64,000 nt of DNA from assembly GCA_029582155.1 (NCBI GenBank), contig CM055909.1:17238534-17302533 (forward strand). The letters are read 5' to 3'. Shown piece by piece: positions 9,501 to 42,000 of the stretch. The DNA is from Panopea generosa (lineage: Eukaryota; Mollusca; Bivalvia; Adapedonta; Hiatellidae). The notes under the pieces were generated by a model that was given only the letters and a program-made list of their open reading frames with translations, was not told the DNA's origin and searched no databases. The position numbers and the translations under genes were made by a program. The stretch's first letter is position 1. Each line of letters begins with the position of its first letter.

Positions 9501-12500
9501 CTGAAAAGTGGTCTCTTAAGGCAGGTGGTCTCTTATTGGGGTAAAAAAAAAAATTGTTGGTCTTTTTTTTGTCTTATATAATGCATGTGCATTTCCATCA
9601 TTTTTAGGGCTTTCACCCACTGTTCTAATGTTAGACATTTTCTCTGCTGAAGACATGGCAACGTTGATAGAATATCACAGTATGAAACCACAATATTGAA
9701 ACCCAGTCAAATAAACCTTGATATTCATTATCTTACATTAACTCATTTTTGTCGTGACAAACTTTCAAACCATCCATGAAAACAATGACAAACTGTCTTG
9801 TCTTTTCAAAAAGCAGATCAAATATTCAAACGTAATAATAATTTTTAATCATAATAAAAAAATATAAAAACAAACGGCACACAGTTCAATCTCAATTTTC
9901 TAATTTAACCTGATCAAAAAGTCGGATCAAAGCTATTTAATATTTTTTGTCGTAATAAAAACAAACAACAAACAAACCTCAAACTGTCTAATCTTTAATT
10001 CCAATTTTATCTAAGTAATTGACAATCCTTTAATGGTAATAAAACAAATAGCAAACATTTCAATTTATTCCACCCAAACAATGAACAAACGTTTATATAT
10101 AATTGGGGTTAAAGTGTTTTAACTCTATAACTTGTTATCAAACAATTACCGTCTTTTACCACAAGACACTACAGTATTTAGCCTCGGGTTATGTTTAGCA
10201 CGTTACCTTGGAGATCGACAATTTTACACTTACACATTTGTCACGTACACAAAGCATGATGCTGAAATTTCACACCTCATGTATTCATGGTCGTATGGTA
10301 AAGGATATTTGTTGAAATTTGATGGATATTAAGTGGTTGCTAGTCACAGAGAACAAGTGGTTGCTTATTGCATGTATAATTATGAATGAAATTCGTTGGG
10401 GGGGATTTAATGTGGTCAGGGGGTTGCTTGTAACAAGTGGTTGCTACTGCAAGTTTGACTGTACATCCCACCCACAGAAGGCAAAATAATCAAGTTGGGA
10501 GGGATATTGTGTGAGTGGGGTTAGAGTGTTTTTTATTTCTAAAGGCAGATCATCATTTTAGAATTGATAAAGTTTTGTTGAAAAGTAGTATTAATTTTAT
10601 CACGATGGTTTTAGTGAAATAAACACCATACAATAACAGCATTAGTGTGAGTCCAGTTGTGCATATTGTTGTTGTGATCAGGGCCAAGGAGTCTTTTTAA
10701 GGAGTTTTGTTCCTTTAAACAATTTTTCATTCATATTGCAGCGGTGTCTACTTGAGAAAGTATTCTGAGCACTGGCACACTCGAGTATCATGCCGCAGAC
10801 ACATGGTATTATATCACCCAGTCACATTATACTGACACTGGCTGACTAGACCTATAACTGTCCTCTAAATGTTGAGCTTCAGCGAGGAAGCTTCTAGTAC
10901 CATTTTTCAATGGGAAGACCAGGCAGGGGATTGAACCAATGGCCTTCTGTATGCAGGCTGATGCTCTACCCCTAGACCAGTGCTGCGGTTTGTAAATCAT
11001 ATCAGTACTACACTTTTTCTCCTAAACTTATTTTGACCTCCTTCTATAGATCCATCAATATTGATATTTATGATTGTATTATGTTTGTAGGAAGAAGTTG
11101 TTACAGATCCTCGGGGCTGGTATAGATCCACCAGTGTTGATATTTATGATTGTATTATGTTTGTAGGAAGAAGTTGTTACAGATCCTATAGATCCACCAG
11201 TGTTGATATTTATGATTGTATTATGTTTGTAGGAAGAAGTTGTTACAGATCCTCGGGGCTGGTATAGATCCACCAGTGTTGATATTTATGATTGTATTAT
11301 GTTTGTAGGAAGAAGTTGTTACAGATCCTCGGGGCTGGTATAGATCCACCAGTGTTGATATTTATGTTTGTATTATGTTTGTAGGAAGAAGTTGTTACAG
11401 ATCCTCGGGGCTGGTATAGATCCACCAGTGTTGATATTTATGTTTGTATTATGTTTGTAGGAAGAAGTTGTTACAGATCCTCGGGGCTGGTATAGATCCA
11501 CCAGTGTTGATATTTGTGAACCAGAAGAAAGGTGTTGATGTTCTTGCCAAGTCACTGGAAAAGATGGGCGTACGTATATTGTCTCTCTTACTTCCAGATA
11601 ATCCACCTTTGAATTTAATTTTGCACCTCATTGTCATTAGTGTCTTTTGCTGAAACTCTGCAGTTCTGCAGGTATCAAGGTTCTAGGTTCATTCTGCATA
11701 TTCATTTGTTGATGTATTGTTTTAATCTGTATGTTAATTTGTTAATTGTGTACATTTAGAGTGAACCTGGAATCTTCATTCCTGTTGGCGTTGAATAACC
11801 TATAATGTGTTGGTATACCATAAAAGCCTATTCATTCATTAGTTTCTCACTGCTGATTCAGGTGCAAAATTATCAGTTACTTATCAGTTAGGATCCCAGG
11901 AAAGTGGTTAGCTCAATTGATTGTCTGTAAGCCCTCGACGGCATAAAAAAGAAACACTAAATATTCAAATAAAAAACAAATTTAAAAAGATTGTATGTTG
12001 TAATGTTTCATTAATTTAGTATAATATTGCTTGTATATGTTGTGATGTTTTTATGCTCCCCCAAAGTGGGGAAGCATATAGTTGCCGCTTCGTCCGTGCT
12101 TTTGTGTGTGTCTGTGTGTCCCCAAGTTATTGTCTGGGCTATTTCTCTACCACCTCTGGTTGGAATTTTATGAAACTTGCTAGGATACATCATTACTAAG
12201 TGCAGATGCACATACTGTCATTGTGTTATGGTTTGATGATTTTTTCAGGGAGTTACGGCCCTTTGTTTCTGTCAATGACCAAATTTTGTCCACGCTATTT
12301 CTCTACAACCCCATGTTGGAATTTTATGAAACTTGCTAGGATGCATCACTACCAAGTGGAGATGTGCATATTGTCTTTGTGTTCTAGTTTGATGCTTTTT
12401 TATGGAGTTATGGCTCTTTAATTGAGTTTGTGACAAAGTTCTTGTCTGCGCTATTTCTCTATAACTTCAGGTTGGAATTTTATGAAACTTGCTAGGATGC

Positions 12501-39020: not shown

Positions 39021-42000
39021 GTAAGTTACTGGCATTGTTTCTTCTTATGTTCATAGCCCTTCCGGTTCTTCAACTAAAAATATAATATTTTCTAAAAGTT
39101 CACATGAACTCCTTGAAATACCACACATAACTGAAGTCGGGTAAAATCTGTATACATCGGTAAATGGTAACATGTATTTTAATTAATATAACTGGAGCTA
39201 TATGGCATTTCTAATATTTCAGTTGAGTCTTATTACTAAAAGTTCTATTTCTCTAATACATTACTCGAACTCATAAGATAATAGATGACTATGCAGAATT
39301 GAAGTCGGAACACAATTTACTCAACGGTAAAGAATAACAGGCAAAATGATCAATGTGAACAAAGTTTCAGTGTTACAAAAATTTGAGTTGAAGTAAATTT
39401 AAAGTTGAGATGTTTAGTGAAAGTGGGGCCAGGGTCGGATTTTACTAAACATCTCCAACTTGAGATTTTCCTCAACTAAAAAAAAGCAATTTCTCTAAAT
39501 GATCTCTTAAAGCATTACACATTGAATAACCACTCAGATTTGAAGTCAGAACTTATCTTTACTTTACATGCTAACTGAATAATACAAATACAGTTATAGC
39601 ATTTAAAAAAATTGAGTTGAGGAAAAGCTCAAGTTGGAGATGTTTAGTGAAACTGGGGCCTGGTATTAAAGTTATATAATTGTTTTAAGTTTTGTAATGC
39701 ATACTTCAGACTGGACGTATAGTTGTTTTAAGGTTTGTAATGCATACTTCAGACTGAACGTATAGTTGTTTTAAGGTTTGTAATGCATACTTCAGACTGA
39801 ACGTATAGTTGTTTTAAGTTTTGTCATGCATATTTCAGACTGGACTTATAATTGTTTTAAGTTTTGTAATGCATACTTCAGACTGATCGTATAGTTGTTT
39901 TAAGTTTTGTCATGTATATTTCAGACTGGACTTATAATTGTTTTAAGTTTTGTAATGCATACTTCAGACTGAACGTACTATTGTTTTAAGTTTTGTCATG
40001 TATATTTCAGACTGAACGTACTGTTGTTTTAAGGTTTGTAATGCATACTTCAGACTGAACGTACGTTTGTTTTAAGTTTTGTAATGCATTCTTCAGACTG
40101 AACGTACTATTGTTTTAAGTTTTGTAATGCATTCTTCAGACTGAACGTATAATTGTTTTAAGTTTTGTAATGCATACTTCAGACTGAACGTATTATTGTT
40201 TTAAGGTTTGTAATGCATTCTTCAGACTGAACGTATAATTGTTTTAAGTTTTGTAATGCATACTTCAGACTGAACGTATTATTGTTTTAAGGTTTGTAAT
40301 GCATACTTCAGAATGAACGTACTGTTGTTTTAAGTTTTGTAATGCATACTTCAGACTGAACGTATTATTGTTTTAAGGTTTGTAATGCATACTTCAGACT
40401 GAACGTACTATTGTTTTAAGGTTTGTAATGCATACTTCAGACTGAACGTACTATTGTTTTAATGTTTGTAATGCATTCTTCAGACTGAACGTATAATTGT
40501 TTTAAGTTTTGTAATGCATACTTCAGACTGAACGTATTATTGTTTTAAGGTTTGTAATGCATACTTCAGACTGAACGTACTGTTGTTTTAAGTTTTGTAA
40601 TGCATTCTTCAGACTAAACGTATAATTGTTTTAAGTTTTGTAATGCATACTTCAGACTGAACGTATTATTGTTTTAAGGTTTGTAATGCATACTTCAGAC
40701 TGAACGTACTATTGCTTTAAGGTTTGTAATGCATACTTCAGACTGAACGTACTATTGTTTTAAGTTTTGTAATGCATACTTCAGACTGAACGTATACTTG
40801 TTTCAAGGTTTGTAATGTATATTTCAGACTGTACGTATAATTGTTTTAAGTTTTGTAATGTATATTTCAGACTGGACGTATAATTGTTTTAAGTTTTGTA
40901 ATGTATATTTCAGACTGGACGTATTATTGTTTTAAGTTTTGTAAATGTATATTTCAGGCTGGACGACTGCGGGAATGGCAATGCAGGAATCAGTTGTGTG
41001 TCGACATTCCGGTATTCTATCACTAATTACCTTCAGAAACCTTATTTTATGGAAACCATGAAGATGCGACTTTGGTGGCGCAGGACAAACTTTTTTGAGT
41101 ATATGCAGGAGGCAGTCTTCATAAACCCGGACCACTTTCATAAGTATGTTATGTTTCATAACTTAATTATATATCACTCAAAATGGGTATCCATGCGAAC
41201 GCCCTCGTAAACTTTTCTAATCATTACTAATATTTTAACTGATTTGTGTGTACAGTCAAACCTGTGTTAAGCAGCCAGTCAATGGAAGAGCAAAAGTGGC
41301 TTTTTAAGACATGCTGTTGCTTAATACAGGTTAATTTACTCTGAAAGCATAGCAATGGGAAATAGAACATATGGTTGCTTAATACAGGTGGCTTCTTAAA
41401 AGAGGTGACCGCTTACACAGGTTTGACAGTATGTCAAATTGAATAGATATATATGTTTAAATCAAACAGTGTAAACAGTAGTTTAAATAGATAACCAAAT
41501 TCATTTGTCGGTTTCAATTTAATATTTATTTGTAAACTTTCAAAAATATATAGAAGTTTTAAATACGTTGAATATTTTAACGATTTAGTTTGATTTTTAC
41601 CCCATGAACTACTCAAGTTTTCTATAGCATAAATAGCAGATAAGCGTCTATGGCTAAATGGTAAGTTCAATTTGAACAATTGTCGCTCGAGTAACTTGGT
41701 TCAGCGAGCGAATTTTAAGAATAGAAAGTATAAATGCGGTGTCGCCGTTAAAAATGCGACTATTACAAACCTCATATACGGTCTCAAATTTTAAAATTAC
41801 AGTATACTCAATCCTATATTCGTTTAAACATATCTATTTATTCAAATTAACATACATTCATACATATCAGTTTGTATACGTATGAACTAGAATGGTTTAC
41901 GGTGGCGTTCGCATGGATACACATTTTGAGAAATATATAATTAAATTATGTGACATTACACATTTGAGTTATGTACAATTAATATATATATTTTTTATTT

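Follow-up and report, generated by a model that had tools for sequence, protein, structure and literature searches.

Minisatellite arrays straddling splice junctions in the genome of Panopea generosa

A 64,000-nucleotide stretch of the Panopea generosa genome (GCA_029582155.1, contig CM055909.1; hereafter the window) holds three genes, each with a minisatellite array whose unit combines the edge of an exon with the adjoining end of its intron. This locus raises the question of how splice junctions come to be multiplied in tandem, and whether their coincidence with arrays reflects chance, a process directed at junctions or the tolerance of a general process. The reading preferred here, at a probability of about 0.7, is that the genome has a general habit of tandem duplication and that arrays straddling a junction are tolerated since the splice site attached to the exon still works, probably via exon definition.

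Anatomy of the window arrays

An earlier note on this DNA had described arrays at two acceptors and one donor. The gene models agree on the two acceptors (DDX23 and a gene with a DUF4430 domain) and the donor (CMPK2), and both TRF and rows of copies split at the junctions confirm that the arrays straddle them. The unit sizes and exon contributions given in that note were also recovered from the split rows: 76 bp in DDX23 (21 intron + 55 exon bases), 52 bp in CMPK2 (20 exon + 32 intron bases) and 43 bp in the DUF4430 gene (35 intron + 8 exon bases). The arrays are not perfectly regular, as one DDX23 copy is 66 bp (10 bases short), the last intron copy in the DUF4430 gene is 44 bp, and the CMPK2 array, ungapped in the split rows, is 9 bases longer by TRF with one indel (Table 1).

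Gene models and protein comparisons place the exons on which the arrays end. The DDX23 coding sequence is open across its 10 exons, and its protein aligns to the DDX23 chain 4nho_A (E = 1.3e-223) with the array junction ungapped. The CMPK2 donor junction reads MDR followed by FWHS, and MDR followed by (F/Y)WHS is ungapped in six relatives, five of which are named bivalves; the best-scoring named CMPK2 comes from Mactra antiquata, at 57% across 77% of the query. For the DUF4430 gene, the Pfam match (E = 4.4e-6, residues 83-138) covers the exons after exon 2, so the placement of exon 2 relies on the reading frame and a signal-peptide-like exon 1. An earlier model of this gene with a 34-base exon near 42010 broke the frame and was discarded, and the corrected model gives 33 window borders instead of 35.

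Several other elements occur in the window. Two further arrays lie inside DDX23 introns, one with a 91-bp unit in 7.5 copies (5138-5820; stop-free runs of at most 95 codons) and one with a 156-bp unit (12130-12795). By eye, long ORFs at 16058-19615 resemble a non-LTR retrotransposon with a reverse transcriptase, and those at 29803-30852 a retroelement gag/protease piece.

Table 1. Genes, exons and junction-straddling arrays in the window (positions within the window) and in the second sample
Feature	Position	Strand	Description
DDX23 gene, 3' part	353..14465	+	10 exons, 19 splice borders within window
DDX23 acceptor array	11045..11519	+	TRF: 76 bp x 6.4; six acceptors
DDX23 exon on last array copy	11461..11569	+	acceptor between 11460 and 11461, leading into the conserved frame; R codon split
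CMPK2 gene	21038..27842	-	5 exons, 8 splice borders; start codon not fixed
CMPK2 donor array	24437..24699	-	TRF: 52 bp x 5.0; five donors
CMPK2 exon 3	24671..24872	-	true donor between 24671 and 24670
DUF4430-domain gene	38971..43459	+	corrected model: 4 exons, 6 splice borders, open
DUF4430-gene acceptor array	39675..40965	+	TRF: 43 bp x 30; ~30 acceptors
DUF4430-gene exon 2 on last array copy	40958..41143	+	acceptor 40958
KDM1A-like acceptor array (L019)			47 bp x 31; 28 exon + 19 intron bases (approximate, array end minus border)
UBR4-like donor array (L030)			98 bp x 6.5; six donors; 91 exon + 7 intron bases (TRF and border position)
HAUS5-like acceptor array (L008)			132 bp x 55; ~78 exon + 54 intron bases (array end minus border)

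Junction arrays elsewhere in the genome and the role of chance

A second sample comprised thirty 10-kb stretches of the same genome, whose places on contigs 1-12 had been set beforehand. Merged arrays with a period of at least 20 and a score of at least 100 number 60 and cover 76 of the 300 kb (25.4%), while the 16 arrays listed by hand in the window cover 18.6% of it. Splice borders (n = 42) were placed in eight stretches by codon-usage scoring, Pfam and exon ends read by eye, and their selection by eye from the codon-score list was not blind to the arrays. Of ten ORFs compared with Pfam, three had no match and seven matched at E <= 0.01, two of the seven falling short of the family cut-off; consequently, about 10 of the 42 borders (those of L020 and L015 and of one L011 exon) are placed by coding score and AG/GT only, and the array junctions are not among them. 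The ORFs of L003, L005, L016, L017 and L024 were left out as having no clear borders or as mobile-element-like by eye. In another stretch (L029), nearly the entire 10 kb (10-9988) is taken up by ORFs that repeat a single unit (DEMGRCVFAALSPDMAPVDHVW and variants).

Straddling arrays occur at three of the 42 borders, all in genes other than those of the window. The exon at the L019 array matches KDM1A chains (best E = 5.7e-19), and the one at the L030 array matches UBR4 chains at E = 3.4e-28, with a best chain of 2.8e-29 that is ungapped up to the junction. The gene with the L008 array is weakly named, since Pfam gives HAUS5 at E = 0.0054 and the augmin 5 chains (E = 0.19) fall behind a Nuf2 chain (0.096). 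Two other candidates were not counted. At the L015 donor (7905), a 28-base piece across the junction recurs 290 bases downstream (8195), which is a two-copy repeat and not an array; the piece may represent either a dispersed element or a target-site copy, and by eye a piece of the unit of the 156-bp DDX23 intron array resembles the sequence next to its second copy. An array in L021 (1187-1426) sits on the upstream side of an acceptor and does not straddle it.

The near-identity of the copies bears on both the age and the reality of the arrays. Divergence from the true copy is 0 across the 55 exon bases for the full copies of the DDX23 array and low in the L019 array (0.033) and the exon part of the L030 array (0.039), pointing to a recent spread of these three; the figures for the L008 and DUF4430 arrays are inflated by indels. 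Near-identical repeats are a known assembly hazard, and false multiplication of a single junction copy would suit the L019 array, where 29 matched copies recur at intervals of exactly 47 bases and the 15 intron bases compared are invariant. Such an error is nonetheless very improbable: differences are scattered among the copies, decoy-decoy divergence being above 0 in the exon part of five of the six arrays and, for DDX23, in the intron part as well, one DDX23 copy falls short of the unit, and similar arrays recur in six genes.

Combined with the window, straddled borders amount to 6 of 75 (8%), 33 of the 75 coming from the window. Whether chance is a poor account of three of three genes, as stated in the earlier note, turns on the null model used. 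When all 33 borders were slid round the window against the 16 hand-listed arrays (1730 shifts), a mean of 3.35 arrays fell on a border compared to the 3 observed (P(>=3) = 0.675), and the statement finds no support. When each of the six genic window arrays was reduced to a single unit placed at random in its own gene, 0.56 were expected versus 3 (P = 0.011, or 0.014 with wholly exonic units ruled out, both post hoc), and it stands to that extent. Unit placement is the better null for how arrays start, though the pattern had been noticed before it was tested. It should be noted that, with a rate of 8% per border, a straddling array in every one of the three window genes has a probability of about 0.15, so that three of three genes needs no special cause given the genome-wide rate, itself derived from 75 borders.

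Checked on other loci of the same genome, the enrichment is suggestive: 3 of the 42 sample borders are straddled compared to 0.74 (eight gene stretches) to 1.07 (all 30 stretches) expected, with nominal P values of 0.039-0.094. For the window and sample together, the 6 of 75 compare with 1.30-1.63 expected (P 0.002-0.007, the window half having been noticed before it was tested), which hints at more than neutral tolerance. The enrichment of arrays at borders is about 2.8-4.6 fold. A separate test with 30-base words found matches at 6 of 77 borders versus 2.5 expected (P = 0.044), where two of the 77 borders are false and one of the six matches is the two-copy L015 repeat; the requirement of 15 exon bases also makes this test blind to the DUF4430 junction.

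These excesses over the unit-level null and in the word test are what would be expected if tandem duplication began more often at splice junctions, whether through R-loops, polymerase pausing or the step in base composition at exon edges. Yet the numbers are small and half of them post hoc, the whole-array shifts give no excess, and the word test carries the flaws described, and such targeting is considered unlikely. For the process that duplicates splice junctions proposed in the earlier note, the enrichment is suggestive, on a background in which about 25% of the sequence is minisatellite, and falls short of demonstrating junction targeting. That ordinary intronic arrays happen to overlap exon edges is rejected as an account of the anatomy, as the units hold 8 to 91 exon bases; chance overlap is the main account of the frequency of straddling arrays.

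Decoy splice sites and the probable tolerance of junction arrays

Splice sites in the array copies were scored with a simple site matrix built from 34 acceptors and 32 donors outside arrays, one of the donors being from the discarded DUF4430 exon. Across the six arrays, 76 of the 116 decoys equal or exceed the score of the true site. In the window arrays the true sites score 8.5 (DDX23; decoys 6.9-8.5, one of five at or above), 8.0 (CMPK2; 5.6-10.2, one of four) and 11.2 (DUF4430; 5.9-12.2, six of 28), and since most of these decoys are weaker than the true site (8 of 37 equal or exceed it), strength by itself may contribute to site choice there. In the sample, the true L008 acceptor scores 7.3 (decoys 5.1-9.0; 35 of 46 at or above), all L030 copies score 10.3 (5 of 5), and all L019 copies score 0.9 (28 of 28), weak by this matrix compared to a median of 6.6. 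Copies without a match to the search words went unscored (about 8 of 55 in L008, 2 of 31 in L019 and 1 in the DUF4430 array).

Splicing at any of the 116 decoys would lead to an in-frame stop, with a frameshift as well in 70; for L008 and L019 the bases carried over from the exon upstream are assumed values. The stop falls within one unit in most arrays and up to 1795 nt on in L008. Conversely, the exon-attached copy is in frame in all six arrays, and only that copy gives the conserved protein; from reading frame and conservation, it is inferred to be the one that is spliced. The suggestion in the earlier note that such arrays persist only while the site on the exon side works fits these results.

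The tolerance of junction arrays may be understood as follows. The genome duplicates segments of tens to hundreds of bases in tandem at many places, as shown by the arrays that make up about a quarter of the sample. Where a duplication crosses a junction, the copy joined to the exon would still make the normal exon and the extra copies would only lengthen the intron, so that the allele would be tolerated and free to expand, an outcome seen at six junctions in six genes. Being nearly harmless, a junction duplication would therefore survive selection that would remove arrays within exons. By the simple site matrix, the extra copies keep splice sites of strength comparable to the true site, and because any of the 116 decoys examined would lead to a stop, the cell would have to pick the exon-attached site out of 5 to 47 look-alikes. 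It most likely does so by exon definition, in which the exon-attached acceptor or donor, paired with the site at the far end, would give the shortest exon. In support of tolerance, the proteins that have relatives (DDX23, CMPK2, KDM1A-like and UBR4-like) read straight through the exon-attached copy.

The same decoys could instead have a use, if they diverted a share of transcripts into unproductive splicing and decay and copy number thereby tuned expression. That all 116 lead to in-frame stops and that they score like real sites would suit such a role, as would the human CBS gene, for which a review associates more copies of a 31-bp repeat at exon 13/intron 13 with lower activity (PMC5188458). 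The stops are not proof of selection, however, because in-frame stops are common by chance in intron-like sequence, and the genes that bear the arrays are unrelated; regulatory use is rated slightly below junction targeting, as improbable. A more far-reaching proposal is doubtful to the same degree, namely that junctions are preferred birthplaces of minisatellites in this lineage, with about 1 in 12 embedded in an array of competing sites, that the spliceosome routinely picks the exon-attached site from dozens of equals, and that copy number is a heritable dial on unproductive splicing.

The arrays multiply some splice sites 5 to ~55 times and, under the preferred reading of tolerated tandem duplication, leave a working site beside the exon and a row of look-alikes in the intron. 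Introns with 5 to 47 similar sites offer natural tests of splice-site choice, since a rule of scanning to the first AG would favour another site than exon definition would. Should the frequency hold genome-wide, it would show how duplications at exon edges are accommodated in a genome rich in repeats, and in such species gene annotation and RNA mapping based on junctions could err at about 1 in 12 junctions.

Comparison with known systems

Tandem duplication across a splice junction has been described in several genes. In potato RdRp, the cited account describes a tandem duplicate across an intron/exon boundary that made a new intron, with RNA support (PMC4974935). The duplicated segment crosses an intron/exon boundary in both cases, but a new intron resulted there whereas here the copies appear to stay within the existing intron. 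Bearing on intron gain by tandem duplication, the DDX23 and CMPK2 junctions are ungapped in the protein alignments. In human duplicated genes, internal tandem repeats (minisatellites) at exon-intron boundaries are described as changing gene structure, with 27 intron modifications (PMC2812944). The position of the minisatellites is alike, but those are recent human paralogues with transcript support, while the present genes (DDX23, KDM1A-like, UBR4-like and others) are known from genomic sequence. As far as these two accounts go, the possible route to new introns or exon ends raised in the earlier note has precedent. Within the open-licence literature searched, no report of junction arrays across a genome was found besides PMC2812944.

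The closest likenesses are both in human CBS. The insertion 844ins68 is described as a tandem duplication of an intron end and exon start in which splicing favours the distal site, the one attached to the exon, and yields normal mRNA (PMC2630376). The acceptor arrays here likewise duplicate intron end and exon start in tandem, with 6 to ~55 copies as opposed to two. The 31-bp CBS VNTR, c.1444_1467+7(16_21), has a unit that by its name comprises 24 exon bases and the first 7 intron bases (PMC2630376), and every copy carries a donor because the unit spans the exon end and those 7 bases. The UBR4-like array (91 exon + 7 intron bases) and the CMPK2 array are built in the same way: the unit holds exon and intron bases of one junction, and each copy has a usable-looking splice site. 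The CBS VNTR is known from one human gene, whereas here such arrays occur at 6 of 75 borders, at donors and acceptors alike, with up to 47 scored copies. Both analogues are already known from human CBS, and it is the copy number and the frequency in this genome that appear to be new.
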